Positions 8,858 to 53,240 of a stretch of DNA of 64,000 nt are shown here, piece after piece. This DNA comes from Crambe crambe (lineage: Eukaryota; Porifera; Demospongiae; Poecilosclerida; Crambeidae), in assembly GCA_963924555.1 (NCBI GenBank), contig OZ004581.1:4937338-5001337 (forward strand). The letters are read 5' to 3'. Every line of letters begins with the position of its first letter. Within the stretch, counting starts at the first letter, position 1. The notes beneath the pieces were generated by a model. That model worked only from the letters and a program-made list of their open reading frames with translations. It was not told the origin of the DNA and made no database searches. Both the position numbers and the translations under genes were made by a program.

Positions 8858-9160
8858 CCTGAATAGCTAGAATCGAAAGTCACTGTTGGGGCTATATAAT
8901 CATAAGTGAGGAAGGAGCACATTGAAATGACCACTGGCTGCTTGCTTGCCCAACTAATGCTATACGAGCATCTCTAGTAATATATTGAATTGACTCTGGA
9001 GATAATAATGGTAAATAAACAAGAGTTTGTGAACTACACCATCTTTGTGCAAACCTGCACCATAGGACCAGGGCCTTACAGTGATGAAGAGATGGCTAGA
9101 TGAGGTAAAAAGGGTTAGTTACAGCTGTTCCTGTCACTATTAATATTACGTCATTTCCTC

Positions 9161-9766
9161 ATGCAATCGATTATAAATTGCCTGCCCCGTGCAGCAAAAA
9201 TAATTGCTGTACGCAGACAATCGCCGGATCCACTACGGACTGCAATGGCTACTGTGGCTGATAAATACCTGAAGAGTGGGAAATGGACCGACCGTATGAA
9301 ATCAGTATTTGCGTTAGCGGACGTAGATAAGAAGGGCTTTATAACAGCAGATTATTACAAAGTGTGGATAGAAAAAATTAACGAGATAATTAAGCCAGAT
9401 CCTTCTTTGATAGCTGCACTTGAAAAGGTATCTCAAGAGTACGTCACTGAAATAGGACTGACCCCTGGAGTCCAGTTTACTGAAGATCAATATCTGGAAG
9501 CAATTGCCAAATTCGCAGCCAAAGATAGAGACAAAGGTGAAGACTCAATGCTATACAAAGGCACGAATGCTTTTTACGATGTGGTTGATAAAAATCATGA
9601 TGGCACGATTACACAAGATGAGTACAAGCTATTGTGCAAGGTTTGGGGGTGTCCTGAAGAAGTTGCACCTGCCATATTTGACTCTATTGATAAGAATCAC
9701 AATGGAAAATTGGAGAGGAAGGAATTGCTTGCTTATGAAATGGATTATACCTATAAGATGGACTGA
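9161..9766 (+). CDS. EF-hand calcium-binding protein, sarcoplasmic type (copy 1)
   Basis: A single-exon 201-aa protein. Two canonical EF-hand loops lie near the C-terminus: 'DKNHDGTITQDE' and 'DKNHNGKLERKE'. An N-terminal degenerate loop, 'DVDKKGFITADY', lacks the usual Glu at position 12. The four-helix-pair layout and length (about 180-200 aa) fit the sarcoplasmic calcium-binding/calexcitin/luciferin-binding group: cytosolic calcium buffers or sensors, sometimes ligand-binding. The first 28 residues (MQSIINCLPRAAKIIAVRRQ...) are basic with no acidic residue until D23. They could be a mitochondrial presequence, or translation may start at the internal ATG of 'MATVADKYL'. A CRE-like 'TTACGTCA' sits about 12 bp before the first ATG in both copies. 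It lies in a duplicated unit with copy 2. Confidence 0.9.
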   Translation: MQSIINCLPRAAKIIAVRRQSPDPLRTAMATVADKYLKSGKWTDRMKSVFALADVDKKGFITADYYKVWIEKINEIIKPDPSLIAALEKVSQEYVTEIGLTPGVQFTEDQYLEAIAKFAAKDRDKGEDSMLYKGTNAFYDVVDKNHDGTITQDEYKLLCKVWGCPEEVAPAIFDSIDKNHNGKLERKELLAYEMDYTYKMD

Positions 9767-13402: not shown

Positions 13403-14011
13403 ATGCAATCGATTATAAATTGCCTGCCCCGTGCAGCAAAAATAATTGCTGTACGCAGACAATCGCCGGATCCACTACGGACTGCAATGGCTACTGCGGC
13501 TGATAAATACCTGAAGAGTAGTGGGAAATGGACCGACCGTATGAAATCATTATTTGCGTTAGCGGACGTAGATAAGAAGGGCTTTATAACAGCAGATTAT
13601 TACAAAGTGTGGATAGAAAAAATTAACGAGATAATTAAGCCAGATCCTTCTTTGATAGCTGCACTTGAAAAGGTATCTCAAGAGTACGTCACTGAAATAG
13701 GACTGACCCCTGGAGTCCAGTTTACTGAAGATCAATATCTGGAAGCAATTGCCAAATTCGCAGCCAAAGATAGAGACAAAGGTGATGACTCAATGGTATA
13801 CAAAGTCAACAGTGCTTTTTACGACGTGGTTGATAAGAATCATGATGGCACGATTACACAAGATGAGTACAAGCTATTGTGTAAGATTTGGGGGTGTCCT
13901 GAAGAAGTTGCAGCTGCCATATTTGACTCTATTGATAAGAATCACAATGGAAAATTGGAGAGGAAGGAATTGCTTGCTTATGTAATGGATTATACCTATA
14001 AGATGGACTGA
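13403..14011 (+). CDS. EF-hand calcium-binding protein, sarcoplasmic type (copy 2)
   Basis: A 202-aa single-exon paralogue or allele of the gene at 9161. It has one extra Ser codon ('KSSGKW' against 'KSGKW') and a few substitutions (for example GEDSMLYKGTNAF to GDDSMVYKVNSAF, and EMDYTYKMD to VMDYTYKMD). Both canonical EF loops and the degenerate first loop are unchanged, so calcium binding should be the same. The reading frame is open throughout and most of the differences leave the protein unchanged or swap similar residues, which suggests a recent duplication under constraint or an allelic pair. The upstream 'TTACGTCA' motif and the downstream NRF1-like palindrome (14084-14094) are conserved. 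Confidence 0.9.
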   Translation: MQSIINCLPRAAKIIAVRRQSPDPLRTAMATAADKYLKSSGKWTDRMKSLFALADVDKKGFITADYYKVWIEKINEIIKPDPSLIAALEKVSQEYVTEIGLTPGVQFTEDQYLEAIAKFAAKDRDKGDDSMVYKVNSAFYDVVDKNHDGTITQDEYKLLCKIWGCPEEVAAAIFDSIDKNHNGKLERKELLAYVMDYTYKMD

Positions 14012-25780: not shown

Positions 25781-26645
25781 GTATATTAAAGAGTTTGAAG
25801 GGAGAAATGTATAATGTGAGTGGTAGAGGGCAGTTACAGTTCAAAACTGTCGTCACTGTTATAATCACAGTCACAAGAATCTCCAAAAACATCTTCCATT
25901 ATGAGATTAGTGTCACTGTCATTTTCAGTTGGCTCAATCTCTTCCCTTTCCAGATCTTCCATGTGGCTGGCTTGTAATGGCAGATTTGAACAATGCTGAC
26001 ACGAACAGCCTTCAGAGCAGTGGTTTCCTTTCTTTCTGCATCCACAGTGAGTTGTTCGGCAACCAGCTTTACATTTGCACCCTTTTGTTAGCAACAAAAC
26101 CCTTTGCTCGATTTGTTTGATGTTATCATCACTATCCCAATCTATGGCAAGTACTCCGTCATTAATCTTCCATCCATGTGATGAGATCTCATGTAATTGG
26201 ATAATGCTCTGATCAGCTTGTCCCCACATGTCTAACACCCAGCATGACCTCTTCCAATGACGTAGTAGTGCATCTACTGAGGGAATCATGTCATTTTCTG
26301 CACTTATTCGATCCCATACAGTTTGTCGGATGTCCTCCAACCACTTGTTGTGTGTATCCAAGGGAGATTCGTCAGTTTGAAAGCTCTGGAAGTGTGATTC
26401 AGGTGAGTTGGTATTGAATCCTGTGGCATTCTTTTTATAATATACGGTGCCAATCAGCCTGAGGAAAGCCAAGAAACCTCGTGTATGTCCTTCATTTGAG
26501 ATTGAAGTATCAGAGAGTGACTCGTGTGTGTATGTTGTTTTACCAGTGATAAATGCTGCATGTTGAAAAAAGTTTCTCATGAATGTGGCCTTTCCAATTC
26601 CTGAAAAAAATGATGTGTAATCACAGCCAGTAACTACAAACAGTA

Positions 26646-27216
26646 CCGTAAATCTGGAAATTTTCGCTGTTAAAAATAATTCGCGGTTGGCTCAAACAAC
26701 GAAAATTAAACACGTGAAATATTTTCTACAACGGATTATTAAAATATTGAAAATATATACGGTAGGAAGCACATTGCATTGCGTACTAGTCTCTAGCTCT
26801 CCAAGTATTTGAAGGTCTTCCAGATCCCCCTGTTCCTTCTCGGGCTATTGCTCGAGCGAATTGTGAAGTAGAGACAGAGTTAGTTAGTTCGAGATAGTCT
26901 TTCGATCACGTCCTACAATCGTACCTGATTTCTTCACTGCCACCGTGTACCTGTCCTTTTCATTCGTTGGCTCCCTCACACTCTAGCGTTTCACCTAGAC
27001 TGGCATCCCACATGTCACGGTACACATGGTAGCCACGAACACAGCAAGTGATCTGGAACTCTGCGCTAGCACTTACCGCCATTTTTCTCCAGCTGGATTT
27101 AGTAGCGAAATTTTCATTGTTGAAAATAATTCGCGGGTGATTCAAAAAACGAATAATAAACGCATCGAAAAAATAAAACACGAAGATATTTTACGCGAAA
27201 ATTTCCAGATTTACGG
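26646..27216. mobile_element. TA-flanked MITE inside the giant gene
   Basis: Ends CCGTAAATCTGGAAATTTTC and its reverse complement are flanked by TA on both sides, a Tc1/mariner-type target. It separates 'ATLSKVIQ' from 'LFVVTGCDYTSFF' in the host reading frame, so the insertion came after that gene was formed. Confidence 0.8.
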
Positions 27217-29984
27217 TACTTGAATGACTTTTGAAAGTGTGGCTGGTTCAATGCTGGCTAGGTTAGGGTCATTTTTCAAAGCGGTTACAAGATGTTTCAT
27301 GTGTACAAAGTGCAGTTCTTTGGATAGAATGCTGCTGATTTGCACTAAGATCTCCTTTTCTTGATTGCACTGAAGTGGCAGACCAATCATGTACACATGA
27401 CTGTATCAATATTTGATTGCAATTTGTTTTCCTTGCATGTAGCCATACTCTGGTATCAGCTTCCTCGGCGTTATTGGAAAACTTAGGATCTGGTTGTGGA
27501 GTGCATGTACTGCCACCTTCTACAAACCATGCTGTATCGGACAGAGGTTCAGCAAATGCTCCAGCCACATAGAACCTTTGATTTTGTACAAGGTAAGGGT
27601 AAAGATGTTTCATCATATTCTGGGCCAAAAAGCACGTTAGATGTCTTTTGCATTGACGGCAGTGCAATACATTTTCTCTCCACTTACGACATGGAAGTTG
27701 TGAGTCTGCTTGAATTGCCTCACAAACGTGCTCAGGTGCTATTGGTGATGCTTCATCACGTTTTTTTTGCTCAAAGTATTTTGGGGTAGCCTTCAACCGT
27801 CCTGGGTTATCAAATATTAAGTGAACCTCAGTGATGCCCCTAGTAAAGTGTGGGATGATATATCTTTGTGACAAAAATCGTCCATAGTCACCAAATGTAG
27901 TGAGGCTTCCAAGAGGAGCTGTGTTTATCATAAACATCCCTTCCACTATGCAGCATTGTGGCTGCCATCCTTGTGGGTATTGTGAGAGAAAAACTTTTTG
28001 TGGAGCATTTTTGTACTGTTTTTCTAAGGCTTTGGTCATGTAATGCTTTTGACCTTTCAGTGGGATCCCTTGATGGTCTGATATTGCCAGTGGTAATGCA
28101 ATCAATTGTTCCCCTGCTGTTTGTATAGGATTCCCTGTACGCATGGACCATTTCAGTTTTTTTCGTAAACAGGACATTAAAATTTTTCTGTCCTTTTCTA
28201 GCTGAGAGACCCGTTTCTTTCCTACTTTTTTCGTAGAAAAGGTTAGCAATTGCTTTTTTCTCATGGGAGCTGTTGAGCTGGGTTCTCTTAGAATGTAGAA
28301 GGATATTCTGGAATGAAATTCATTCTGTCCAATCACCCGAAAATTGAGCAGATCTGAGGTTTGCTGAGCAGTAGCAGATATTTTGGTGAAAGGGTTCATC
28401 AGACCTCTGTTAGTAGGTGGTACTTCAAACAGTGAATGTTTTTTTATGGCTGTGATCTGTGCTTTGATGTTCTCTTCTCTTTTATAATCTCTGCTGTTTG
28501 TGGTTAAATACCAGTTGTGTGTCTGTGGATGAACTATTTCCTTGTCTGGAAATAGCTGTTGATCCAAATTTTCAAGAGTCTTAGTTCTCGATGGCAGATA
28601 GTTGACAAATCTATTGATGTAATCATGAGATGGCTGTACAATTGATGTTTTACATGATTTATTAATCAGCATCTCATGAGCTTCATCGATGGCAACTGAA
28701 TGCCATGATCTTCCCCCAATACTCACCACAAAAGCACCTTGTCGAAACATAGTGAGAATGGATTGTGGCATGCAAAGTAAATCTGCTAGGTGTTGGGATA
28801 TAAGTTTAGTGTAATTGTGGTGATCAAATGCCGTAAAAGTGGCAGCCATTTGTTTGATGCTGGCTACCCTCAGTGACCAATCTCCACTCCTGATGGCAAG
28901 GAAGAGCCCTATGTATGCCATGAGATCCTGAAAAACACACTGCACCCAAAATCGCCATGTTTCATCTTTCTTAGCAAGTTTTTGGATGAAAGCTTTAAAC
29001 TTCTTAAAGTTTTCTGATGTCACATGATGTATTACATCTGGCGATTCTGGATGGGACAGTTTATTGGCAATAAGGGTAAGAGGGTGGGTGTGAACTTCTG
29101 ACTGCTTCTCCAAGAAAACTGTAATCATAGCCCTATAGAGAGCCTCCCATACCTCCAAGAGAAAACAATGGGTCCTTTTAAATTGCCCACAGACTTGAAT
29201 GGACGCAACAGGGTATCCTGCAGCTTTAGCTAGATCCTTGAAACCTGCATCGAAATATGGTTTCATGAGAGCTTTTTGAAAGTTCATAAGCATATGCCAA
29301 TCTCCAGGCATTGGAATTACCCAATCAAGCTCTTTTCCATATTCACTTTTTAGAGCTTGGAAGATTTCGTACAGCTTTTGATCCCCCGTGAGTACTAGAT
29401 ATTCCTTTTTTTTGTTCAGAATGAACTTCGTGTAAAGATCATGCAGGAGTTCAATGATGGTATCTTTGTTGTCAGACTGTGCGTCAATGACTTCCAGATA
29501 TGTTACCTCAGACTTTTTGGTATGTGTCACCCTTTTCAAGTCAAAATAGGTTTGAATGTTAATAAATACTTGTCTTGAACTGGGGTCAGCCGTATCATTA
29601 ACAGCCATTTTTTGTAACATGTAGCTAAACAATTCTTGAATTTCTGCTACAGTATCAATCTCTGTCTGACTTGTTGCAAAGTCAACTAGTGACTTGGTAT
29701 TGATGGGTGCAAGTTGCTGGGTAGTAGGTGCTGAAAGCATTGGTACCAAATTTTTTGTACCATGATTGATGTATTCTTTCCTTCTCTCTACTCCAGTACG
29801 TCCTCTGCACCATGCTTTTGTTGCTGTGATCGTATGAGGTATGTTGGAGAAAGCATTGGTGATCCTCTCTCTGGTCTTTTTCGTGACAAGATATCTGCTG
29901 TATTTGAGGTAGGTGATACTGGACTGATTTGGAGCAATGATGGGACTGAAACTGGAACAGGCTGTTGGAGTGTTGGTGTGACTG

Positions 29985-30178
29985 ATGTTGGACTGGTGGC
30001 CATGGGTTGGAATTCGAGTGTTGGTGTGACTGACGTTGGACTGATGGCCATGGGTTGGAGTTCGAGTGTTGGTGTGACTGACATTGGACTGGTGGCCATG
30101 GGTTGGAGTTCGAGTGTTGATGTGACTGATGTTGGACTGGTGGCCATGGGTTGGAGTTCAAGTGTTGGTGTTACTGAT
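29985..30178 (-). repeat. 48-bp coding minisatellite
   Basis: Four to five head-to-tail copies encode 'SVTPTLELQPMATSPT' (16 residues) with few changes. Both strands stay open across it because the period is a multiple of three, which explains the shadow ORF on the plus strand. Confidence 0.9.
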
Positions 30179-31807
30179 GGATTTGCAGCCAGTTGCAACT
30201 GTGTGTGAAATTGAGCAGGTAAGAGTTCGAGTCCAGGCAGGGGTTGTACCAGTTGTACAGTGGTTCCATGCCAGCTGCTTTTATGATTATTGCATACTTG
30301 GGAAAATTTATGTAAAAAATCGATGTTGTCTGCTGATACTATGATAAAGGAACTGGAACTGAATTGATCAGTACAAGGAAGACCCAAACTCTCTATTTTA
30401 GTTTGTCTGAATCTGGATAAGGTGTCTTTTGAGGCGCATAAGCCTAGTCTGTTTAAGATTTTTATTAAGTGAGCTGATCCCCCATGGCTCTCCACAACAT
30501 CAGTAATCAGTGTATGCATAGGTAGAGAACAACGATCATCTGTGCTGAAAAGGATTGCAGAAAGCAAAAAAAAGTTTCTTACTGTTTTAGTGTTGGATTC
30601 ATTTTTAGATGTACCAATTCTATCTCTTGTGGATCTGGTTAAAGCACAGATAGCTTTCCACAGTTCTGGATTGAGCTGATCAATGATAGAGTGGATATCT
30701 AGCTTTCATATTTACTTAAAAAATATGAACTTTTTGCTATAAATTTTTGACACTGATCATGAACCAAATCATTCAAGTGATCAAGTACTTCACTACTTGA
30801 TTCATTAGCACTTGATTTCACTGGATTTTCTGGATCCTCAACAGGTGTGGGTTTACTCTGACCAAGCTTCCATAGGGTTTGCTGTAACATTGGTGCGAGG
30901 TCAGATGTTTGCCTATAAAGTAAGGTGCCGTACTTTCTGACACTGCAGAAGTATTTGAGATGATGCTCCAGCTCACTTAGCAGGTTACAAAATACCCACA
31001 TAGCTGTCATGTGTGTACTTTCACCCACTAGGCCACTTTTTACCAATAGTTCACTACAGTATTTTTTGAAAAGTTGGTGTACTGTCGGTAATAGCATTAC
31101 TTTTCTGTGCAGTAGTTCCTGTCCAACGTAAAGTATAGTTTTATCCATGGCCAAGTTGGTCACTTGTTGTAGTGATGTGGGAGAGATGGTATGTGTTCTG
31201 CACCTAACTTTTTCAATTAGTGATTGGAGCTCGCTGTCTAGGCTTGCTTTGTTGTCACCCTTAATGATGGTTAATTGGGATTTATAACAAGTGAAACAAA
31301 CCCTATCTGTGTCAGATATGTGACCGTCAAAACCAGTAGTCGTTCGTAAATGATGTTCAATAATTGCAGGGTTTGGGGAAAGTCTGGATTTCATATTCTT
31401 AAGAGAGGTGTTACAGGTGGGACAGTTGGTGTTTGGTTGTACTTGTACGTTTTTGTAAAGTTGATGGTAATGATGTTTACAAAGGGGGGTTGGAATGGGA
31501 AGAAACCACATTCCTCTACTGCTAAGCTCATTCTATTTGCATCAGCCATGTTGCTAGAAGCAAATACATCGTTTGTACAACACCTAATACAGCATTCATT
31601 ATTAATCCTTTGTTTTTCCCACCTAGGATGATAGGTGGAATTGGTGAGAACTCGTCCGACATCTCTGCATGGCCGGCATATGTGGTTGTCCCCTGTGATG
31701 CCCTTCTCAGCTACAAACTCACATGCCTTGATGTTCTTCCATGTTTTCACACGAGACATATGGTCATGGGGGGTATTACACAATGCACAATCTGTGGCTT
31801 TTGACAT

Positions 31808-32912: not shown

Positions 32913-35900
32913 ATGGGACGTAAAAAGTTCCTCTTGGTAGTGAGAAAGAACAGGAGCAGAAGAGCAAACCCATATCCACTTGTTATCTCAATCCCCAAAG
33001 CAAGGCTTCCAGCACCAGATTTGTCATCCCTGGATAACCGATTACAGTCATCCACTATTGGAAATTCATGGAGAGTCACAACTGGTTTTGATGAAGAGGG
33101 CAGAAAGATTGTTCTCTATTGCCTTGAGATGTCTCGTGAATCGCCTATTATACGATCTTCAATCACAATAAGACAAAATTTTACCTGGCAACTGAGTGTT
33201 TTTAGCATTATCATTACACCTCGACTCTGTCATGCATTGATTGGCACCCCTGATTGCCTAGATTCTGTGGATAAAGTAATACAGATGATATCATTGATCG
33301 AAAAGTGCAAAATATGTCAGGGCAATGCTGATGATAAGTTTATTGAAGTGGCCAAACGTCGGGATGGTATTTTCAAGAGTCATAGTGGTAAGGCATGCAT
33401 GCATGCATGCACAACATTTCTACCATAATATATTACTATGTACCAACAGGAATGAACATTACTGCACATATAGACTCTACAGCATTCACTTATCCCACCA
33501 TCAGGCACAATGAGTGTGAAGTTTTGCTGCATGGTGAAAGGAGATATGATAGGTGCCAACAATGCTCCAACTACAGAAGCAGCTCTCTGTATACATTCAG
33601 CCAAAGACTATTGGCCCTGAGCAATGACCGTTTGGATCCAAGTAGCCATGCCAACTACACTTCCTTGACCACTAGAGAGAAAGATGTACGAATGAGAAAT
33701 CTTCAACGTTCAGTTAGACAGTGTGAGAAACAAGTACAGTATTGGAAGGAGAAGCTTGAAGAGGCGATAGAGACCAGAAGTATTTCTGATGATACTCTGT
33801 CCGAAGATTTACATACCATAATGACCACTGAGAATAGCAGCATTATGGATCAATTTCCAGAAGGTTCATTTGCCAGGTTATTTTGGCAACAGCAATTTGA
33901 AGCAGCATCCAGGAAGACCAAGGAGATGAAGAGGGGAATGCACTGGGATCCTCTGATGGTGAAATGGTGCATATATTTGCGCCATAAATCAAGCGGAGCA
34001 TACGAACTTCTTCGCAATAGTGGATGTGTCTTGCTACCATCCCAGCGCACATTACGTGACTACACCCACTATGTGAAGGCAACAGTGGGTTTTTCAAATG
34101 AAGTTGATGTACAGCTTGCTGCTGCAGCGAAGCTGGACTCCTGCAAAGAATATGAAAAATGTGTTGTGATGCTAATGGATGAGATGTACATCAGAGAGGA
34201 GTTGGTGTATGATAAACACAATGGATCTCTCATCGGTTTTGTTAACCTAGGTGATATCAATGACCATTTGCTCGCCTTTGAGCGTTCTATAGCTGATAAT
34301 GCACCTGCCGAATCCCTTGCTACTACAATGATGGTTTTCATGGTTCAAGGACTCCTTTCATCCCTGAGCTTTCCATATGCACAGTTTCCTTGCTACAAGA
34401 TCACTGGGCAGCGTCTTTTTGATCCATTCTGGAAAGCTATTTATCGTTTAGAGAGAATGGGATTCAAGGTAATACAAAATAATATGTTATGAAATAGCAT
34501 GGCAGTGCATGCACGTGCATGTGTGACATGATAAAAATTTATAGCTAGAAAAAATGTTGAGTAATGTCACACTTTATGCAGGTTCTTGGAGTAACATTTG
34601 ATGGTGCCTCAGTGAACCGCAGACTAATCAAGATTCACAAACCCAAGGAAAGTTTGCTGTACAAGGTTTCCAATCCATACGCATCAGATGGCAGAGATCT
34701 ACTCTTTTTCTCAGATCCGCCACATCTGATAAAAACAACTCGCAACTGTTGGGCATCGAAGACAAGACAACTGTGGGTATGTTTATCAAGTACCATAATT
34801 ATCATGTTGTGATAGACTGACATAATTATTAGTATTTTTATGTAATCATTATTATTGTCTATTATAATTTACTCCAGACTACTTAAGTCATTGTATTATG
34901 TCAGTTGTGGAGTTGATGTCTATTCAAGAGTTACGTACTACACATGTGGATGATAATAGTTTTAACATTGTTTCAGAATAATGGCAAGTTTATATTATGG
35001 GAGCACCTTACTGCATTGTATGAAAAAGATCGTCTTAACAGTCAGTTATCCTTGGTACCCAAGCTTCGTTATGAGCATATCCACTTAACTGGTTTTTCAA
35101 AGATGAGAGTGGATTTGGCAGCACAGGTACCTACAGCTATATGAATCCGCATAATAACTATTGCTGGAGTGTATTATAGGTTCTGAGTGAGACTGTCCAT
35201 AAGGCTCTTCTTTTAGCCAACAAAACTGACCAAGAAGAAACCACTCGTTTTGTGCTAGCATTTGACCGGTTTTTTGACTGTTTAAATGTTAGTAACTTTA
35301 CAAATGGCAAGTATAAGAGAAAAGTATTTCAGCAGCCATATCGTTCAGCAAAGGATTTTCGCTTAAAGGTGTTAATGATAATTATTGCAGAAACTGCAAT
35401 GACCGAATTTTTTTACTGCATGCAGTTTTTGGAATCTGAGTTCTTGCCGTATTTAGATGCATGGGAGGATTCGGTGAAGAATCGTCAGGGAGAATTTGGA
35501 GATGGTGAACGTAAAAGAATGCTTTTGAGCTCAGAAACTTTGCTGGGAATCAGAATTACTAGTGAGTATTATAATTTCAATCATTAATATCAACTATAAT
35601 ATTATGCAGCTCATTCTTTTATCGAACTGGTTCGCTACCTATTCAGTCTTCCTGATGTGAAAGTTTTCCTGAGCCAGAAGATCTGCCAAGACCCAGTTGA
35701 GAATTTCTTCAGTTGCCAGCGACAACGTGGAGGAACAAATGAGAATCCAACTGTGGCTGAATTTTGCAAGAATACACAAGCTTTACGTGTAATCAGCAAC
35801 TTTTGTCGGTCATCAGTGCATGGTAATTGTCGTGGCAATAACAGCCGCACCTTGATTAGTGAGGAAGAAGGCTTGCCAATACCTAAAAGGAGGCGCCTAG

Positions 35901-40719: not shown

Positions 40720-42422
40720 GATATCTTTATATCTTTCTAATTATAATGGATGAAAGTATATGCATGTATTATAATAATTATTACAGTCCATGCAGACATG
40801 CATGACTACTAACCTTGTTATGACTCTAAATTGCCAGCTTTGGCATATACATTATATTAGTAGTCATACACTACAGGCATATATACATTACTAACCCTAC
40901 ATGCTTTTTATTTAACATAATTTTTTTTCCTTTCACTTGTAGTATGTATATATCAGTAGCTAGTCAAGGATTCTGCTATAACTAATGGAAACCTTTCTTT
41001 GATGTTTCCTCTACACACACATGCTTCAACTAGAATTGAATTCTTATTAGAAATGATCATCTGAACATCTTATTATCTAAGACTCAGTTAATATGTGACA
41101 TTGTCCATGTCCCACTTGATAACTATCAACCTCCTCCTCAGGACATTTTTAAGAACAAAATTGAAGTCAGGTATGGTACAAGTTATCAGCCTTGGTAGGT
41201 AATAATACAACACAACTCTAATAGAGAGAGCCTGTAGGCTAGAGTGTTCTCAGTCTGTAATGTACCAAATGGATTCTCTCCAACATGTTAGATGAATGAA
41301 GAGACAATTAGTGACAGAAATACAACAAATACTAGTTGAGGAGTGGACATGATACCATTACTACCATGCACACCACACTTGCCATGAAAAACAGTCATGA
41401 TTACACTCACAACATTCATCACCCACTACAATTGACACTTCCGGCTACCATGGCAAATAATCCCAATGAATTCATCATCACAAAACATTCATGCATTGTT
41501 AGTAATTAACTGTCGTCTTATCTGATTTCCTATGACACTCCAACTGAAAAAATAAAACTGTCGTTATAAAGTGGAGACACAAGTCTGAACAACAACAACT
41601 AGAGAACCTGATGGTAGTGCAATCATAAAATCAATGAATGCACATGTATATAATTATGTATAAGGGTCTCAGTGAGGTGGAGGGAACTTCACACCACCAT
41701 TATGAATGTACTTAGCATCGAATGATCAAATGTACAGTTTCTCCCTTCACCTACCAGAACACATCTCTACTGGTACATGTCAGGCTCAAAGGAAACATAC
41801 ATTTCAAGAGATAAAGAACCCCCACCCTTTTTGAAGTGTCTGTACGTGAACAAGCCACGCTGCATGGGTCAGTTCCAGTGGTACCACATGATGTAATATA
41901 TCCATATAAGGCAATGCAATACATGTTTATCTATAGTGAGGAATTGAGGATGTCACCGCAGGCATGCACTAGGAGATGAGGGAGGGAGGGAGGGGCTCCA
42001 TCTGAAGAGGGGAGGGAGAGAAGAGAAAGGGGAAGGGGTTGAAGATCTAAATTTCATTGACCCCATTGGTGGACATATCTGGACTATAAACTACAGTGAG
42101 GGAAAACTGTTTCATATCAGAAACATCTGTCAAATTTGCCATACATCACAATCTACAAGTCATGTACAAGTCTACAAGTTCTCATTCTATTACAAGCATA
42201 GTTAACTATGCCATTCTTACTCTCTTTATTCCATTCCCATTTGTAGGATATAAAGAGAGAATCCCTTCCAATACGGGCAGCATTAAATAGAGCTGTAGTT
42301 TAGCACCAGTATTAAATGTATCAGAAACGTGACTAGGACACACTACCAAGGACACATTAACTCCGTCCTCGTCCTGAGGTATAACCCCATCAACACTAAA
42401 TTCTAGCTATTACTATACTATA
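40720..42422. repeat. Intergenic; includes inverted copy of the 58-59.6 kb repeat
   Basis: No gene. 40890-40930 is a solo end of the MITE at 3284. From about 41220 to 41970 the sequence is a diverged reverse complement of modules at 58366-58430 and 59500-59640 (for example 'ccaaatggattctctcc' against 'ggagagaatccatttgg', and 'gatcaaatgtacagtttctc'). Confidence 0.6.
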
Positions 42423-42869
42423 TGAATGCAAAAAATTTCTTCGAAATAAAAATGTGAAGTAGGGATGCTATTATAACTGCAGCTTCATTATGAAAACCAA
42501 GTACTGCAGCATTGAAGCAGTATGGCCCAAAAATCTAGCTGGAATATGTATTATAACTGCATGCAACTTGCCAAGAGAGTGAACTTAGTGAAGTGACCCT
42601 TACCCATCATCAAGTACAAGATACTATTCCTACTTCACTCCCATGATCAAGGGCCAAGGGAGTGAAGTAGGAATAGTATCTCGTACTTGATGATGGGTAA
42701 GGGTCACTTCACTAAGTTCACTCTCTTGCATGCAGTTATAATACATATTCCAGCTAGATTTTTGGGCCATACTGCTTCGATGCTGCAGTACTTGTTTTTC
42801 ATAATGAAGCTGCAGTTATAATAGCATCCCTACTTCACATTTTTATTTCGAAGAAATTTTTTGCATTCA
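42423..42869. repeat. Near-perfect 447-bp hairpin with arms of about 215 bp
   Basis: 'tgaatgcaaaaaatttcttc' at 42423 and its reverse complement ending at 42869 open two arms that match almost base for base to the centre near 42646 ('catgatcaagggcca'). A transcript through it would fold into long double-stranded RNA. A short relative ('ctattcctacttcactccc') lies at about 62360. No ORF. Confidence 0.9.
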
Positions 42870-42894
42870 CTTGTGATACTAGGTATGACCATTA

Positions 42895-43246
42895 CTTTAA
42901 CATGCAAATTAATTCATAGGTGTCATCTGACTTCTTCATCATTGGAACTGGACTAAGGACGCACTGACCTATGATACCAAGTATGACCTGTCCTCTATAT
43001 CATCTCCAAACTTATCCTGGTTTCTATTGACTCATTTCTATTTCATAGATGTCATCTGACTCCGTCATCATTGGAACTAGACTAAGGACACACTGATCTA
43101 TGATACCAAGTATGACCTCTATATCCAAACTTATCCTGGTTTCTATTAACTCATTTCTATTTCATAGGTGTCATCTGACTCCATCATTGGAACTGGACTA
43201 AGGACACACTGATCAAGTATGACCTCTATATATCATCTCCAACATG
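42895..43246 (+). repeat. Threefold tandem repeat of about 120-130 bp
   Basis: Three successive copies of a unit with 'ggtgtcatctgactcc', 'cattggaactggactaagg', 'acactgatctatgatacc' and 'aagtatgacctctatat'. Copies differ by small indels. Non-coding. Confidence 0.85.
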
Positions 43247-46200
43247 TTAGTCCCCAATCAATGAGTGAACACCATTGATTAGCACATTGGGATGTGGACA
43301 CTTTGATGTATTAGGGTATGTGATATGGTCATGTGGTTGGAGATGTGTAAACCACGCTATCATGTGGTCTCATTAGTGGCCAGCAGTGCAGCAGAGAGAA
43401 TAGCTATGTCTGATGTCCCAACAAGCAGTGATTCCCCACAGGTAAAATCTCAGTGTTGTAACCTAGCATATCATATTGCTATCATATTAGGGGAAAAAGA
43501 GACCGAGGAAGTCTACAAATGAAGCTAGGATGTCATTATCCAAGGTAGTTCCTCTCTTAGCTGCTATACCTGCAACATAATCAAGTAGTTATAATCATGA
43601 AAGTATAGGTCCTTATTTCACTATGCAAAGTACAAACTGGTTCTTCTATTGTTTAGGCAACAACTGTACATGAGGTAATTTTCAAGGAGGCAAGGAAATC
43701 TTCAGAGTCCTTGTATGACCATAGCTCCCATTTACTTAAAAAAAGTAAGAAAAACTGAAACTCGCAAATCCACAGTACGTGAACAGTCTCGACATAAATT
43801 AAAGGTACAGTACAAATAGTGCAGCCATGCTGGCACAATTTCATGTATCATTAAATTTCAGCATGAGTCTGGGTTTGATCTACATGGCCTAGGAATGCCT
43901 CCTGACTCAGACCCACATCAGGATTTAAACCCCTCTTCTTCAGATCTGACTCCAGCCACGGTAGCCATGCATAGCTAATTATTTCTACATATTTAAAGTA
44001 TCACTATTCTATAAGATAATACAGTAGTTGATGAAGTCCACACATATATTCACATATTGAAACAGTTTAAGGCATTTGTGCCTTGCAGCAACACATTTCG
44101 GCATTTTGTTATGCAAGATTTGAATTTGGAGACTCTGAATCTTAAGGTTATTAGCTATCAAATTGGCTCATTAGCTCATTTTAACGTATTGTTCTTAATA
44201 GCAACACAAATACGAGTTTGTCTCCAGACGAGCTACCATTTTTGAAGATGGAGTGAATTGGGTGTATTGGTGTTCCTGTGATTCTTCACGAGCCTTGTTG
44301 ATGTCTAGCCTCAGCCATCAAGTTGGAAGCAGCTACTCTGAGCTTTGCGATTTCAGGGGTGAATGCTTACATATAGCTGCTTCCAAGTACATTATTGAAG
44401 AGTTGGATGCAGTTCATATGATATATCCTAGTTTGGACTTTGCTGGTAAGTTTATTAATTTTGTGACTTGTACATCCATCATCATTTCATACAGACCATA
44501 CCTACTCTACTCCACCTTTCGAGAACCTCCAGATATATGAAGGGGCATTGAACCAGCTCTCTCAATCGATGTAGATGGTAACTTTGGTGTGATCTGCCTA
44601 AGACGTCAAGGAATATTTTGTACAAAGTGTAGGCACCCTACTAGTTGTATGCATGTTACTCATCTGCAAGAATGCATCAAGGAACTGAAGTCACAAGAAG
44701 AGCTAATCCCTCAACTTCAGCAGTTCACCAGTTTTATCAATGATTCTGAAGTACCGGATTGCAAAGTCCCATCCATAAAAAAAAACCTACAGTACTACCT
44801 ATTCCCTACAATTTACCACCAAATTTAAGGGAATGCCTCAGACAGGATCATTCACGTCAGTTCAATATGTATGATGGCGTTGCCAATTTGATTCCAGCTG
44901 CTACATCCACCTGTTCACAGTGTGGTGCTCATAATAGCTGGACTACTCCCTGTATTCTGGTGACACTACTATGCTGCTATCAAGCAAAAGGTTTGTGCAA
45001 TAATTTTGGATTTGGGGTGACCACTCACCCCCATTCCTACACTTTTGTTATAATAATATTGTTGCATTTTGATGGTGTAGGACTTTCCTACATAGTCAAT
45101 GTCCTACTCTCTATGCCTGTGGCACTAATGCATCTTATTATAGTTTATCTACGAAATTGCACCACTGATGGCTGTCTCAGCCAACTTTGTTATGATGGTC
45201 AGGAGGATTGTATTCTAAACATGGGATTGTTCCTAATTGCATATGAAGTCTTAAGGAATCACATGTATCATTTTTTTTCATGGAAGGTAAAGCTACAACT
45301 ATTATTATAGCAATTACTGAATGTGTGTACATCATTATACGTAGGACTACAATGTTCACTGAGTATACTATTCTCCAAAAGATGCATGGTGATGTTGAGG
45401 ATCAGCTGGTCCTTAATGCTTTTAAATACAATCACTTTCGTTATGCGTGGTATTCTTTCATCAGCCTACTGGATATAGATTATCCAGAAGGATTTCGTTG
45501 TGAAATATGAGGTAACAGTCCAAGTACAGTGATTATGGATGGCACTTCTCTCTCTTTTAGGCGTGCTCTAGACTCGTGGAAGTCATTTATAGGTCCTGTG
45601 CCTAAACATGATCTGAAACAAGGCAGATAAGTCAATCAATGCTAATAGTGTGACCATAAAATTAGTGTGTATCATATTACACTAGGTTCAATGAAAGGGT
45701 TTATATCTCTGACAGGAAACTCAGGACTCTGTTTAAGGACTTCTGTAGCAAGGGAATAACAGCTGAGCATTTTTTCGAGATAAATGGACTTTTATCCATC
45801 CATGCGCCATCCCTCTTACCTCTTATGCAATTTTTGAAAGAGCTCATAAATACTTCACATCCTATTATTCGGTGTCCACAAGAATGGTCAAAACTGATCA
45901 GTGCTCTTGCCTATCAGTCGCCTGTATGTGCTTTGGTACATCCAAATGATCAGCTATTCAATCTTTTAAAGAAGATAGGCGAAGATAACTTCACCTCGGA
46001 TCCATTAAGCATGGAAATTCTGCAGCGAGAGGTACCCATTTTATTTGAAGTTTTGGGAACCGTCAGTCATCTGCTAAAGTAAGCTATATCATCATTGATC
46101 ACTTCATTGATTGAAAAAGCAAAGGCCCCCTTTCATTATTCAAAGAGTGAATCTGTAGAGACAGCCAACCAATGGTAGATCAATTTCAAGAGCTATCATA

Positions 46201-46406
46201 CTTCCCACATCTACTTTCTGTTCAGACCCGTGGTGTATACGAAGCTGATAAACATCTTCACAAGGCAACAGGATGCACTAAGCACAGTAGTGGACATCCT
46301 TCATTGTTACCAGGGCTGTTCACTTTGTTTTGCCCCCACGGTGAGCAAGAAGTATATTATTTGAAACACTGAATGATAATAATTACTATGTATTATTTAG
46401 GAATAT

Positions 46407-48244
46407 CAGGTGCGTAGCCAGGATTTTATCATAGGGGGTGCTAGCAAGAAAAGAAATATCCGCGCGCTTACGCTCGGAAAATTTTTATCCAGCCACGCCC
46501 ACTTTCCCACTAAACCGCGCCCACTTGATGCGACCTTTGAACTAATAGTAGCGATGTCAGACTTTTTTTTTATTTTTTAAATTTTGCCTTGATTTTTATG
46601 CAGCTGTGTTCTTTGGTTCCTACACAACACATTAGTGCAAGAATCATACCAATACCTTGTTCCTAAGGAGAGTTATGCAAAAATAAAGATATCAATGTCA
46701 TAGATTTCCTGTACAGAATTTACACAGCAAACTCCATATAAACAATGGTACTGTAATATGATAGTATACCTAAGATACCACAAAGATATTAGAAGACCAT
46801 AACTCCTTTTTGGTGTACAATCAGGATACAAGATTTGGAGGGATGAACTATTACATTTCACTGAGTAGATAGCCAGCATATAACCACACCCACTTCCTGT
46901 TTAACAGGAAATAACACATTATATTTCACTATTAGTCAAAATCTCATTACACAAACTGAACATACACTTCCAGATACAAAAGGAAGACACAAATGAACAG
47001 ACAGTTTCAATTCACGACGGTTTCTAATTGACTGGCAGACTCACTTCCATTGTGGGAAGAAACAGAACGGGATATAGTCTTCCGGCTTGGAATGGCAGGA
47101 AAAAATGGCTCCTGAAATAATTCTTCTATTTCATTATGCCGTTTATTGCGAGATAGTTCAGATCTCTTTTTTTGCAATCTAGAAATAGAAACTCGAACGG
47201 TTGCTAATGGTGGTAGTGCTTCACACGATAATTGTTCTAACCATTCATAAAATATGTTCCAAGAGTATTCATTTTTTTTCCTGTAAATATTTAGTTCATA
47301 TGCTACACCCTTACTCACAGGCTTGGTTAACTTTGGCTGGTTGGCTGCTACCAAATCTTCTTCACAAATACCAGCCTGCCTGCAGTGAACTCCTAGGTCT
47401 AATCGTGTGGCCATTGTATCCTATGCCAAAATATTTGAACTATTATAACATACTAGCAATTTGCACAATGATCGTTTTAAATTAATGCACACTAATGTCA
47501 TGCAATAGCAGTTTAAAATCCGCGCATTTCCGCTGAGTTTTACTGCCTTATCTACAGTTGATTGATTAGTACCTAGCACTAGAGTAATATAACTACCTGT
47601 AACATTGTTGTACAAAACTCACCTTAGGCTAGCAACAAATAATAAGGTTTGGTTTCTCTCTTAGACTTCGACTTCTGCGTTTTAGAACACAAAACTGACC
47701 TCAGATTTGAAATCAGCGCCCCCACTTTCCCTGGGACAAATTGAATCCACTTACTTTATCGCGTTGGTCGTGACTTGGATCAAAACTTCGCTGAGGTAAG
47801 CGGTGCCACCACTCTAATTAACGCACTACGTACGCAAATATTCGTATTTGTTTTGTATGGCTTTTTCTTTGAAACATGATTCTACCGCAATTATCTTAAA
47901 AACCGCTTAACCAATAATTCAAACAACTTTAATCATGAAGTAGAGAGTGCAATTCAGGACAATTTAAGTTGGTATTATTGCTTTTGGCGATCCAATTTGT
48001 CAATATATGGAAGTAGTTAGGTCTGAAATCGCTACTAATAGTAGCTAGCTAGCTATAGCGTTAGCAGAAGTAGTTAGCAAGAGTAGTTTTTACAGTTTAG
48101 CTTAATTTGAGCTTGGTGGATCTGGGAGAAAATTATTAAGTAAGTACGTAGATCGTCTGTTAATAATTAGGTAGCTATTACACATCCGGCGCAGCTCAAA
48201 GGGGGTGCTCGAGCCCCCTGAGCCCCTCCCTGGCTACGCGCCTG
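46407..48244. mobile_element. 1838-bp DNA transposon nested in a KDZ exon
   Basis: Ends CAGGTGCGTAGCCAGG and CCTGGCTACGCGCCTG are inverted and flanked by the direct repeat AATAT (46402-46406 and 48245-48249). Removing it rejoins the KDZ exon in frame right after the acceptor at 46400, so boundaries are precise. Inside is one ORF on the minus strand (47007-47414). 'GCGTAGCCAGG' ends are common in invertebrate genomes; the superfamily is not assigned here. Confidence 0.85.
47007..47414 (-). CDS. 135-aa ORF in the nested transposon, unknown
   Basis: The frame is intact from MATRLDLGVHC to a stop at 47007. It is basic and helical, with 'YSWNIFYEWLEQLSCEALPP' and 'RVSISRLQKKRSELSRNKRH' (possible helix-turn-helix or coiled coil). 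No catalytic motif is visible, so this is not a transposase by itself; it may be a DNA-binding or first exon of one, or a cargo exon. Codon pattern and lack of stops suggest real coding. Donor-like sequence downstream was not established. Confidence 0.4.
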   Translation of the reverse strand: MATRLDLGVHCRQAGICEEDLVAANQPKLTKPVSKGVAYELNIYRKKNEYSWNIFYEWLEQLSCEALPPLATVRVSISRLQKKRSELSRNKRHNEIEELFQEPFFPAIPSRKTISRSVSSHNGSESASQLETVVN

Positions 48245-48722
48245 AATATGTTTTGGATTCCAAGTCATGAGACTACAAGAATCTCCTAATGTACCATTTT
48301 TGACACTGTATACAAGGTTATTACATGGTAATGTTAATGACAGTTGTTTTTTGTTTTTATTTTTTAAGTTTTTTGCTCATGTGATAGCTCCAGCCATGGT
48401 CATTTATGATAATGCATGCAATTTGCACTCATATTGCCTGAACCGTGAACCAGATTTTTTTAGGACCACTTGGTTTTTGGTTGACAGATTCCATTGGCAC
48501 AATCACACATGTGAGTAAATGATGCAGTGATGGCTACAACATGGCTGCTTATCCACAGCTAGCATCTATGAACAGTGAGGTCGTTGAACAAGCCAATTCT
48601 TTAATACAGAAAATAAAAGGCTCCGTATCATATATGACTGCTCAGAATTTTATTAATCATGTAAAGTTATTTTGTTGGTATCACAACAAACAAAAAAATA
48701 TGAGTATGTAATAACAACACCA

Positions 48723-50006
48723 TTAATTTTTTAGCCATTTGAATACTTTGACAGAAGATGATGAATGATCACCATAATCGTATAATAATTCATTTCCAAC
48801 TGGAATGTTTTCAGATGCAAATATACAGATGTAAGGTCTGGTCTCTGATGACACCAACCTCACTGTGAGGTTAGGCTTGGATTTGGAATGATTGATGAGT
48901 CGACCCATCCAATTACTTTCCTCAGTACTGTAGCATCTATGCTGTTTGTCATGATTATGATGATATGATCTCGGCAACAACTTTATAGTCTTACCACATC
49001 TTCTTTCGGCCATACTGAAAGTAGAACATGAAGTTCCCCTTTTCTTCTTTAGCGTATTTACTTTCCCTAAGTTTTGCCTCATCATTACTTATCAACTCCC
49101 CACTATATTCACAAATGAAGTCTCCTTGCTGGAAGGGATGGTCTGTGTAAACAGCCCGGCCTTTCTCATTCGTAATGACCTTAGAAAAACAATAAATAAG
49201 TAAACTGAGAGAGGGTGGAAAGGGGGAGGCTATAGAGTATTTATTGATCACCTTCAATCCTTCATCTACAGATTTTTGAATCTTGCGAATAATATCCTTG
49301 GTTTCAATATCCTGTATGGTCCAATTTAGTTACTGCACTTGATCAGTCTACATACATACCTTCTTCAATGAAGAACAAATCCGTTGTCTGCCATAGTAAC
49401 AGAAAGTATAAGTACCATACTACGTGTGTAGCTAAGTCAGTAACCACTCTATTGTATGTACATACCTTTTATATTTGCCTGACATTTCATGGCATTTGGC
49501 AAGGATATCCCTCCTGATTTGTATGGAGGAAAATTTTTGCATTAAAATTGCTTTCGATTGGAGGTCATCCAGAACATGCTGTATAGGAATGGTATATTTT
49601 ATTATTAAGGATTGTAGATTGTTATTAGTACCTCCAAAAGCAAATTCATGTTATGAATAACATGAATCCCACAATCCACTGAGTTACTCTGTTTGCAGAC
49701 CTGTGTTTATAAATATGTGTAAATAGGAAATTAGACATTTCTTTCTAAAAACCTTGAGAGGAATTGGAATCAACTTATTATTGATGATACTCAAAGTAGC
49801 AAGAAAATGCTCAATTCCAGCAACAGCCATACTGGAATAAGGACTGAGGTTGTTCGTCATTGAGTCCAGGACGTAAGCTCTTCATAGGAATGAGATTAAA
49901 AATAGCATAGTCTGAGGCAGTAACATACGTACTTATTTGTTGCTGGTACCACGGCCACTAGTATCCAATGCCAGGCAGTACTGTAGTAGGATATTGCAGT
50001 GAGTTG
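48723..50006 (-). CDS. Ulp1-like protease fused to KMT5A-like SET domain, at least eight exons
   Basis: Exons on the minus strand: 50006-49933, 49879-49753, 49700-49632, 49578-49466, 49387-49360, 49311-49252, 49179-48995 and 48941-48723, joined by GT-AG introns of 48-78 bp whose phases agree. The first three hold a C48/Ulp1-type core: His in 'TAWHWILVAVVPATN', Asp in 'AYVLDSMTNN', Cys in 'NSVDCGIHVIHNMN'. A helical linker follows ('LQSKAILMQKFSSIQIRRD'). Then comes a SET domain closest to H4K20 methyltransferase KMT5A: 'GRAVYTDHPFQQGDFICEYS', 'CIDAT', 'GRLINHSKSKPN', 'NELLYDYGDHS' and the terminal 'WLKN'. The only lesion seen is five extra bases after 'CIDAT' near 48925. The 5' part is missing from this model; an open stretch at 50225-50031 may belong but does not join in frame. 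It would deconjugate SUMO-type modifiers and methylate lysines (inference from families). Confidence 0.65.
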
Positions 50007-50257
50007 CTAGAACAAGAATAGAGTGTGCACTCACCTTGCTTTGCAAACAAAAAGAATGAGCGGCTTTTTAAGTTTGAACCTTTGTCCATTAACTCTATGG
50101 TGTGCTCCAGTTAAGATGTCCCTGCTACCCTTTGGATACCTCTTAATGACCTCAAATGTCAGTGGACTTGAAGTAGCCACAGTTGACGATGTTGGCAATA
50201 TGTGTCTGCAGTTATTTATGCACACATTATGTCAGGCTTTACACCACAAGATATATA

Positions 50258-51035
50258 AAGGGGGGTTCCCTGGCTCCAAAACTTGCCACTTTACAAATGT
50301 ATTAGCGTAACTCCGCCCACTTTTACTTCCTGTCTTAGCCCTTCCCTTCCTCCATACCAATGTCCGTATAACCCAGATAAAAGATTCATTGCTTAGTTTC
50401 ATCCTATAGCTAAGTCGATGTCAAATTAGAAGCCTTTATCAACTATTTTTAATTAATATTTTTTTAACGACCACTTGTGAAGCTACTATACTATGGGAGT
50501 AGCTGTATACCCTAAAGGGTTAAAAATTTGCTTCTTGGGACAATGATAACTTAATTTAAAAAATTTTTAAAATTATACTTAAGATATCATTTGAATCTTC
50601 TTTAGAAGCTCTACAAAATGTGGCTCTCTATTTCAAACTATAGGCACTGTAATCCACGTTAAATGACCTAAAGTACTGAAAGGTACTTTGAAACATTAGT
50701 GAATCACTTGAAAGATGATTTAAAACTTTTGTGTGTGTTGCTATGGAAAAAGGAAAGCCACATTTTGTAGTCCTTCTACATAATTAGTACTGTGTAAAGT
50801 GATGAAATTTTACCACAATTTTATCCTGAGTTATTACTGTCCCTAACAGTGGTCTTCATTTTTGCTTGAACGCAATATTTTGGGGCTTCAATTCTTAAGC
50901 CACACCCACTTTTTGGTTCATAAGTACTCCAACTATCATTGAAATAGCATACTTAATTTCATGCGAATACACATTACGGTAAATGAGTAATCCAACATTT
51001 TTTAGTGCAAAATTTTTAGCCAGGGAACCCCCCTT
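50258..51035. mobile_element. 778-bp MITE with ends AAGGGGGGTTCCCTGGCT
   Basis: Exact 18-bp terminal inverted repeats. The interior is AT-rich without an ORF. It lies between the Ulp1-SET gene and the hAT-like relic, and may have displaced upstream exons of the former. Target duplication not resolved. Confidence 0.8.
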
Positions 51036-51049
51036 AAAACACTTTACCG

Positions 51050-51420
51050 CACATAGAGTTCAATTGCTGCGTCAGAAATCCCATTCCAGGAGTAGATTGA
51101 TTGGATATCAGTGAAGGTAATCAATAGAAATAGTTATAGAAAGCTGATGGCGAATCAAAAAATCTTTAATAACAGTGGTAATAGCTTCTGCATCTGTCTT
51201 AGGTAAGTTGATCAATTCAAGAGTATCTTCGATTCATGGATAGCAAATGTTTCATCTTCCCATCTAAGTGATATACAGAGCTGTTCTTTGTTGCTTATAT
51301 CAGTTGCTTCATCTGCAATCAAAGCATATATTATGTAAGCTGCATGAATATCTTCTAAAAGTTGTAATAGTTCAACCAATCATTTCATTCACAATGATGG
51401 TAAGACCTTACTATTAATTT
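51050..51420 (-). pseudogene. hAT / ZMYM1-like transposase fragment
   Basis: The minus strand reads 'YALIADEATDISNKEQLCIS' and 'LRWEDETFAIHESKILLN', then, after a stop or shift, 'TDAEAITTVIKDFLI' and 'RHQLS'. This is the catalytic-Asp region (DEATD-S-KEQL...LRWVD) of the DUF4371/ZMYM1 branch of hAT transposases. Only this block survives. Relic; no terminal repeats recognised. Confidence 0.65.
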
Positions 51421-53240
51421 TATCTTCCATAATGGGATACTATTGATTGTCCATAAAGTTGAAGGTTTGGACGTCAACCTTTCCACATCATATTCACAGT
51501 GAGTGATTGGACACACTTGTTAGTGGAGTAATAATGTGATCTCCAAGGACACTTGCAGAATATTCTTACTTGTTGCAGGCATCATGACATGCATGGCCTC
51601 TAGGAGTCCACTTACCCTGAAAAATTGTTGGTTAAGAATTTAGAGAGGACATGGAGAATGTGGTTATGAAATCCTTCGTATGTGTACTGAGCATATGCAC
51701 TTGTCCCATGATCCTTGCATTCCCCTAGCTAGTACAGGGGGTTTTGCATCACAAAATTTTTATGCGAGCTGTGTATGCTCAAAGTTGCTGATTGGATACT
51801 GGGTACAATATCTTTAAGTTTCGAACCAACTTATAGGAGGGCCTACGTACACGTTCTAACTGCTGTTTCAGCAGTATTATTCTGTCTGGTAGTAAGGTGA
51901 ATTTATGAGCATGCACAGCTCGTTTTCAAATTTGTGGCTCAAAGACGCTGTACATCTCACATACAGTATTGAGGGGACTCTATCGCAGATATGCCCACCA
52001 TTTTTTGGAGTGCCTGCACCTCTCCATTATATGCATGGACACGTTCCAGTGCTATATCCATGCAATACCCACAATGACATGTTTGTTTATCAACAATAGG
52101 GGTTCTTGATCCCCCAAATGTATCTTTCAAGCCTGACACATACCAGTAGAGAAGAATGCTGGTCATTGGACTTGTTATTTGCCATGGAAGCCTTTAAAGT
52201 GGGTGGAGCTGTCAGTACAGTTACAGTGTGTCATTAATACACTTGAAAGAAACTTTGTTTAAATGGAGAATGTGTGGCATGATAATGTCTCAAAATTGTA
52301 TAAAAATAAATTAAAAATAGTTATCTCTAAATTCTAAAATAATTAAGTACTCAACATGAATTAGCAGTTTGACTTAGTTTAGTTATTTCTTTCTTTTCAC
52401 TGTTGCAATTCAATGTCTTAAGTTTGCATCTAGATCTAAGCCTGCTGTTGTTATTTGGATTCCAATCTTTGTACCACAATCCGGATGTACCAATCAAAAA
52501 GTAAGTTAGCTGGTGCTTCTTTTCCACTTCTCATACCATATTTGTGGACAGAGATTACTACCAGTGTGGCAAACAGCAGAGAGACCTCTCTCCACATGAT
52601 GGACTGTCTATACAATATCAAAGATACACAACCAGTGGAAATGCAGAGTCAGCATATGGTATGGTTCAGGAAGGTTTCCTTGACCTATTATCATAACTGA
52701 AACTGCTGAGCGTCCTACTATTTTTTTTTCCATGTAGCCCATGAATGGTAATGGAGATATATCACTAGACTTTGCCCAACATATCAGTTATGTGAGTTGT
52801 TTCTTGCAGCAGTCATCTAACAAACTACCGGGCAAAAGTGAAAAGAATTATTAGCTACATAATGGGGTGATATCAGTTCATTTCTTCATTATTTATATAA
52901 CATTATCTCCAATCAATAGTAGAAAAAATGACTGAGAAAAATTTTTTTGTGGGGGGATGCCCCAAATAAAACCCTATTAGCTATATTATATCATAGCAGT
53001 CAGCTTTGGGATGAAGATGCAACTATTGAAAGCTTACAACTAATCAAACACTTTGACCCTGAAATTGGTGAGCACAGAGAAATCGAAATCCTGGACAACT
53101 TGGGAAGAAGATAACCGAGCTTGTAGGAATCCCACCTTATCGCATCAAATCCAAAAGTCAGAAGTTGATTGCTTACAAGATGTGATTGGAGAAAGGCTGG
53201 ACAGTGCTCCCCAAATGCCACACTTTAAATGCTCAAAGAA
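51421..53240. other. Intergenic repeats, possible upstream exons of the death-domain gene
   Basis: 51900-52160 is a mosaic-repeat module (with 'tgtttgtttatcaacaa' and 'ccttatatgg'-type words). 52160-52215 contains one unit of the 'tgccatggtaacctttaaag' repeat found in tandem at 60056. From about 53000, frames such as 'LWDEDATIESLQLIKHFDPE' and 'GIPPYRIKSKSQKLIAYKM' look like coding remnants but cannot be joined without lesions. Confidence 0.4.

Follow-up and report, generated by a model that had tools for sequence, protein, structure and literature searches.

A Ulp1-SET gene beside a KDZ transposase in the sponge Crambe crambe, best read as the relic of a transposon carrying chromatin-modifying enzymes

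Does a sponge genome encode a protein in which a Ulp1-type protease is joined to a KMT5A-type SET methyltransferase and, if so, does the gene belong to the host or to a mobile element? The question is raised by a stretch of Crambe crambe DNA of 64,000 nucleotides (hereafter the window, C1:4937338-5001337). A reading made from the letters alone (the sequence-only reading) had placed such a fusion at 48723..50006, assembled from phase-compatible exons, and had tentatively linked it to a mobile element on account of an adjacent transposase. Here, the window was compared with the genome (143 Mb in 119 contigs searched), with protein databases and with the literature. Contigs are numbered with C and compared loci with L.

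On the minus strand, from 50205 to 48723, a nine-exon model encodes a SET domain downstream of a Ulp1-type peptidase core (Table 1). All eight introns are GT-AG introns, and exons 1 to 8 are open in a single frame that runs through the Ulp1-SET junction up to the first half of the SET domain. In the joined model, PF02902 is matched with E 2.5e-8 and 34.4 bits (curated cut-off 20.7; 35.6 bits in a longer composite model) and PF00856 with E 1.2e-19. The best PDB match of the SET part is SETD8/KMT5A (E 2.9e-31), with an alignment that begins at residue 188 of the 336-residue model, and the 14 best PDB sequences are all named KMT5A/SETD8/SET8 or H4K20. The translation contains a His in WHW, an Asp in VLDSM, a Cys in VDCGIH and a Gln six residues ahead of this Cys, which we take to be the catalytic residues of the peptidase; the SET part carries GRLINHS and ELLYDYGD. 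Roughly 45 residues separate the Ulp1 Cys exon from the start of the KMT5A match. Exon 5 resembles by eye a short stretch in L048 and L055 (no match at E 0.05). The peptidase is thus of the Ulp1 type and the SET domain of the KMT5A type, with putative specificities, by family resemblance, for SUMO and H4K20, respectively.

Table 1. Positions of the KDZ transposase, the Ulp1-SET gene and associated features in the window, and of the parts of the fullest copy (L041, own numbering)
Feature	Position	Strand	Basis and remarks
Left subterminal repeat block, diverged units	42874..43245		Matches left side of L041 in several registers
KDZ transposase N-terminal exons	44241..44871	+	tblastn: 81-90% identity to L040, 47-83% to L041; no Pfam match over cut-off
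KDZ transposase middle exon	45687..46079	+	tblastn; counterparts in L040, L041, L055; no Pfam match
KDZ transposase, start of catalytic region	46196..46342	+	PF18758 once joined with 48246-48711
Foreign element inside transposase, 6-base direct repeat on both sides	46407..48243		Absent from L039, L040, L041, whose matches abut
KDZ transposase C-terminal exons (DNACNLHSYCLNREPDFF, DRFHWHNHT)	48246..48711	+	PF18758; tblastn
Exon 9: SET second half (NHS, ELLYDYGD)	48723..48941	-	Copy alignment; frame-shifting insertion relative to L040
Exon 8: SET first half	48995..49179	-	PF00856, PDB SETD8/KMT5A; GT-AG
Exon 7: KMT5A-type region ahead of SET	49252..49311	-	PDB alignment
Exon 6: linker	49360..49387	-	Also found in L039, L040, L041
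Exon 5: stretch past Ulp1 core (..QIR..)	49466..49578	-	Translation
Exon 4: Ulp1 Gln and Cys motifs (QSNSVDCGIH)	49632..49700	-	PF02902
Exon 3: Ulp1 Asp motif (VLDSM)	49753..49879	-	PF02902; flanking introns placed as in L055
Exon 2: Ulp1 His motif (WHW)	49933..49980	-	PF02902
Exon 1: Ulp1 middle part	50035..50205	-	Inside PF02902 match of longer composite model
Foreign element with inverted ends, in intron of Ulp1-SET gene	50260..51033		In L039, absent from L040 and L041
First Ulp1 exon remaining in window copy (WNGISDAAIELY)	51047..51121	-	tblastn; also in L039, L040, L041
Parts of L041	OTU within 9595-8966; PHD 8803-8631; Ulp1 8515-7879; SET 7600-7289	Same strand	Stops and gaps present

The last exon of the window copy is out of frame at the usual acceptor because of a short insertion, which is shared with L039 and absent from L040 in the copy alignment, L041 being deleted at that place. 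When the acceptor position common to L040, L051, L052, L043 and L044 is used, the window frame stops early in this exon, and C-[IV]-D-A-T and the remaining SET motifs lie in different frames; in the SET exons of L040, CxDAT, GRLINHS and ELLYDYGD all stand in one frame. A nearby substitute acceptor restores the window frame but loses three residues of C-[IV]-D-A-T. The two domains, with their motifs, lie where the sequence-only reading had put them, on the minus strand and far above chance (PF02902, PF00856, PDB). The phase compatibility that it had described holds for exons 1 to 8, and for exon 9 only via the substitute acceptor. Its boundaries proved too narrow, as Ulp1 exons reach 50205 and the first one lies at 51121-51047.

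The gene stands tail-to-tail with a KDZ (Kyakuja-Dileera-Zisupton) transposase, the transposase on the plus strand and the Ulp1-SET gene on the minus strand being convergent. The joined C-terminal pieces of the transposase match PF18758 with E 1.6e-9 and 38.3 bits (cut-off 26.6). A genome-wide PF18758 profile search gave 54 matches, which include other KDZ loci and not the window element. In the left subterminal block, a motif recurs at 42950, 43079 and 43195, with a spacing of 116-129 bases; Tandem Repeats Finder reported nothing in 42000-52500 of the window, although this block repeats with divergence. For the window family, the left block was found, and terminal repeats and a target-site duplication were not. 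Directly left of the block lies a near-perfect inverted repeat (42423-42869, 144-base arms, 99%) that forms a foldback. A weak inverted pair (76%) at 41753-41822 and 52099-52163 encloses the KDZ locus; its right arm recurs at 99% in L039, neither arm is present in the other loci (56 loci), and the pair is not attributed to element ends.

A genome-wide search for the fusion returned at least 45 matches, from which four close loci with both domains were read: the window, C1:5760714, C6:4070089 and C17:6707789. These are spread over three contigs, a transposase adjoins each of them, and the order Ulp1-SET is kept at the three loci beyond the window. A distant Ulp1-SET locus lies at C19:3285750 (L052). 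L039 shares 99% identity with the window over 4.3 kb and, as this identity extends into the flank, may have arisen by segmental duplication rather than by an independent insertion. In L040, a PHD exon is located upstream of Ulp1 (PF00628, 24.8 bits with a cut-off of 24; 27.6 bits in the longer composite model). The fullest copy is L041, which displays an OTU-like part, PHD, Ulp1 and SET in order on one strand; one of its transposase pieces is inverted. We call the first part OTU-like because it stays below the Pfam cut-off (PF02338, 17.3-20 bits against 23.3) and yet matches OTUD1 as a three-row profile (E 4.3e-6).

All four close copies (window, L039, L040 and L041) are broken. The window copy is truncated upstream and contains two inserted elements. 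Its match to L040 and L041 stops at 51125, the OTU and PHD exons known from other copies were not found in it, and the element in its Ulp1-SET intron has inverted arms at 50258-50286 and 51007-51035. In L040, a deletion shifts the frame of one Ulp1 exon and the exon 7 acceptor is missing, and deletions in L041 take out the Ulp1 His and Cys motifs and much of the SET domain. Differences were counted between copies in exons and introns, respectively, with the boundaries of exons 2 and 3 misplaced by at most 4 bases: 28/982 and 16/500 sites for window and L040, 27/982 and 18/500 for L039 and L040, 21/693 and 11/447 for window and L041, 23/665 and 14/422 for L040 and L041, and 11/1015 and 2/525 for window and L039. 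Divergence in exons is not lower than in introns, so the four copies give no sign of present constraint. The window feature is best interpreted as what remains of a transposon that carried chromatin-modifying enzymes. The protease-methyltransferase pair of the sequence-only reading is real in that both domains are joined, but it is the tail of an OTU-PHD-Ulp1-SET gene of which the window holds a broken relic. Its assignment to a mobile element is borne out by the convergent KDZ transposase alongside and by three more loci with both genes, and the genome-wide search for copies that it had proposed did find the fusion again at three close loci.

Among 16 regions examined, KDZ pieces related to those of the window are present in seven (L039, L040, L041, L048, L051, L052 and L053). 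With the window, this makes eight loci showing both SET and transposase, and the two are convergent in all eight; the transposase piece of L052 comprises 30 residues only, about 2.5 kb off. Three decayed copies form a second, diverged family, with OTU, an Ulp1 remnant and SET in L048, OTU, PHD and SET in L051, and an Ulp1 remnant and SET in L053. In both copies of this family that show the stretch, the Ulp1 Cys is replaced by Tyr (L048 4912-4983, L053 4706-4768), so those copies could not desumoylate. This shared loss speaks against a need for desumoylation in the L048 family, though both copies are decayed. The SET domain of this family reads ELLF in L051 instead of ELLY, a change expected, from work on KMT5A, to affect how many methyl groups are added. 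In L052, a stretch with the His and Asp motifs matches Ulp1 by tblastn (E 3e-5) and is followed by SET; a Ulp1 Cys exon was not found in this locus and Pfam does not report Ulp1 there. Between its transposase piece and its Ulp1-SET gene, L052 contains an inverted repeat of ~600 bases (2822-4431, 76%), part of which resembles L040 6497-6664.

The third family (L055 and L056, the latter a sequence of 2,200 bases only) has the composition OTU-PHD-Ulp1, with PF00628 at 10.7 bits, below the cut-off; SET was not found in L055. Among the matches listed, the L055-type gene occupies at least seven places on C18 and C10, plus partial matches elsewhere. At four of the seven places, of which L055 is the one that was read, a transposase match starts 4.4-5.4 kb away. 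In L055, the transposase and the OTU-PHD-Ulp1 gene are divergent, not convergent. One OTU exon of L055 (3102-3272) runs against the direction of the other exons, and in L056 it has the sense orientation. Both genes are enclosed by inverted subterminal arrays in L048 (4207-4493 and 8767-9998) and in L055 (513-1650 and 9201-9660); an inverted-repeat scan of L040, L041, L051, L052, L053 and the window gave no such arrays around both genes.

Capture of a host KMT5A gene as genomic DNA is the probable source of the SET part. It is suggested by an intron within the Cys codon of C-[IV]-D-A-T, whose place and phase, judged by eye, agree between L040, L051, L052, L044 and L043, the last being a KMT5A-like gene that may be the host's own. 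In a first tree (20 of 50 database proteins), the SET rows of L052/L054 and of the L048 type group with L043 and L044; in a second (18 of 50; P0003, P0009, P0041, P0047, P0049 and P0050 taken out, P0008, P0010, P0030 and P0032 brought in), they do not. Forcing the window, L052/L054 and L048-type rows into one clade is not rejected (AU p 0.30). The SET domains of L040, which represents the window family, and the L048 type are 41% identical over 139 sites, on which ground the split between them looks old.

Among the other SET and Ulp1 loci of the genome, L042 is a lone Ulp1 exon, L047 a further SET gene and L054 a piece of SET. L044, L045, L046, L049 and L050 represent a multi-copy gene in which short Cys-His clusters precede a KMT5A-type SET domain; L050 shows the SET end only, and L045 is assigned by matches equal to those of L044, not by reading. 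The Pfam matches of these zinc-finger-like clusters are below cut-off, and L044 and L045 lie near where contigs C8 and C16 begin. Beside L042-L047, L049, L050 and L054, tblastn found no KDZ pieces at E 0.01. Elsewhere in the window, minus-strand frames at 25834-31532 match DUF6589 (E 2.3e-17) and show a CXC-type cysteine cluster below cut-off; they are possibly another mobile element. A plus-strand frame at 33392-34492 is another transposase, its RNase H domain being TNP-like (PF21787, E 1.6e-17). Two near-identical frames at 9119-9766 and 13361-14011, a duplication, have by eye the look of EF-hand calcium-binding proteins. Rfam reported nothing in the window at gathering scores.

In searches of 5.8 billion proteins, which depend on short shared words and may miss distant relatives, no protein of OTU-PHD-Ulp1-SET or Ulp1-SET build was found. 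Each of the 50 database matches listed for a composite query of 461 residues has PF00856, and many of those that bear a name are annotated as KMT5A or H4K20 methyltransferases; PF02902 occurs in none of the 50 according to precomputed domains. Ten of them were rescanned, with SET as the sole domain above cut-off. A PHD-Ulp1 query yielded none of 973 candidates at E 0.01 and an OTU-PHD-Ulp1 query none of 5032 at E 0.001. One database protein, P0049 of Hydra vulgaris, combines SET with a Psq-type helix-turn-helix match below cut-off and is perhaps another link of a KMT5A-like SET domain to mobile elements.

The window feature is very probably what is left of the second gene of a KDZ-type DNA transposon, in a defective copy. 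That the fusion is an artefact of splicing or assembly, which the out-of-frame last exon of the window might suggest, is scarcely credible: L040 carries this exon free of the insertion, and the domain order recurs in other families. The catalytic residues named by the sequence-only reading are present, as they would be in a domesticated host gene fusing a desumoylase and a methyltransferase. Such a gene is nevertheless highly improbable given copies on three contigs, each with a transposase alongside, four broken close copies with exons that diverge like introns, and a likely host KMT5A elsewhere (L043). We rejected host gene identity on the copies with transposase and their decay. Two separate neighbours that look like one gene, the Ulp1 gene belonging to the transposon and the KMT5A gene being captured, would agree with the L055 family, in which an OTU-PHD-Ulp1 gene occurs without SET being found. 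The like divergence of exons and introns lends no support to any present coding unit, and the single transcription unit is deduced from strand, order, phase and shared introns. Against two genes stand the same order and strand in the window family, L052, L048 and L053, as well as GT-AG introns and exons 1 to 8 in phase across a junction of roughly 45 residues; we regard this arrangement as improbable.

The explanation as a whole, namely a defective KDZ cargo gene whose intact form acted on chromatin, appears likely. The OTU, PHD, Ulp1 and SET exons would have made one protein, judging from their strand, order, phase and shared introns. This protein would enter the nucleus and bind histone tails via its PHD domain, OTU and Ulp1 would strip ubiquitin and SUMO from chromatin or repair proteins, and SET would methylate H4K20 or another lysine, with the outcome that copies of the element stay expressed and able to transpose. 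As the mode of action, anti-silencing, which the sequence-only reading had also suggested, is plausible and is put forward tentatively. It is a reasonable proposal because SUMO promotes silent chromatin in animals, as it does in yeast and plants according to the section of PMC8131101 drawn on here. More doubtful is the full account, in which a KDZ lineage evolved a single protein that unites two different isopeptidases with a histone reader and an H4K20-type methyltransferase of captured origin, and that shields the element from SUMO- and ubiquitin-dependent silencing. H4K20me1 also has repression-linked functions, with which anti-silencing fits less well. The accessory protein might, instead of relieving silencing, serve transposition itself, by removing ubiquitin and SUMO from repair factors where the element is excised or inserted and by marking nucleosomes for repair; we hold this to be rather unlikely. 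H4K20 methylation is linked to repair and replication, which counts for such a role, as does the position of the gene beside transposase pieces in all eight SET-bearing loci showing both. A repair-related role has also been suggested for the Ulp1 and OTU domains of Ginger transposons, in the part of PMC2836005 consulted for this comparison. Nothing observed separates the transposition role from anti-silencing, and PHD and SET point to chromatin rather than to a particular step. If the reading as a chromatin-directed cargo gene is true, a transposon with deconjugating enzymes, a histone reader and a captured histone methyltransferase would offer a test, set by nature, of the marks on which silencing depends. 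It would also exemplify the uptake of a host epigenetic gene, intron included, by a transposon, and families with and without SET in one genome would permit a direct comparison.

Transposon-borne OTU, Ulp1, PHD and SET domains have each been published before, and the combination OTU-PHD-Ulp1-SET was not found in the literature searched; among the best-ranked open-access titles, with Repbase and subscription literature outside this scope, neither a Ulp1-SET nor an OTU-PHD-Ulp1 fusion appeared. The peptidase shares its His-Asp-Gln-Cys set and family PF02902 with the Ulp1/SENP proteases but is here part of a multi-domain transposon protein. The SET part is like KMT5A (SET8, SETD8, PR-Set7) in its best PDB match and in the intron in common with the KMT5A-like L043, and differs in not being a stand-alone enzyme. 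A DYFPVRRS-type motif before SET, present in L043 and in seven of the ten database matches read, was not seen in the window gene. The C-terminal parts of Ginger1 transposases contain PHD and either OTU or Ulp1, never both in the passages concerned (PMC2836005). In the sponge element, OTU, Ulp1 and PHD modules likewise travel with a DNA transposon, but OTU and Ulp1 occur together, in a separate gene, with SET added in some families. SET histone methyltransferase genes are carried by HarbingerS and MuDR transposon families, named for Phytophthora in the excerpt of PMC12730594 cited here. A SET gene on a DNA transposon is thus shared with them, whereas the transposase superfamily is another one here; that excerpt leaves the SET type and any fusion unstated. 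Fungal KDZ transposons carry TET/JBP dioxygenase genes, according to the same excerpt (PMC12730594). They have in common with the sponge element a KDZ transposase accompanied by a second gene for an epigenetic enzyme, and differ from it in their cargo, which in Crambe crambe is an OTU-PHD-Ulp1-SET gene.
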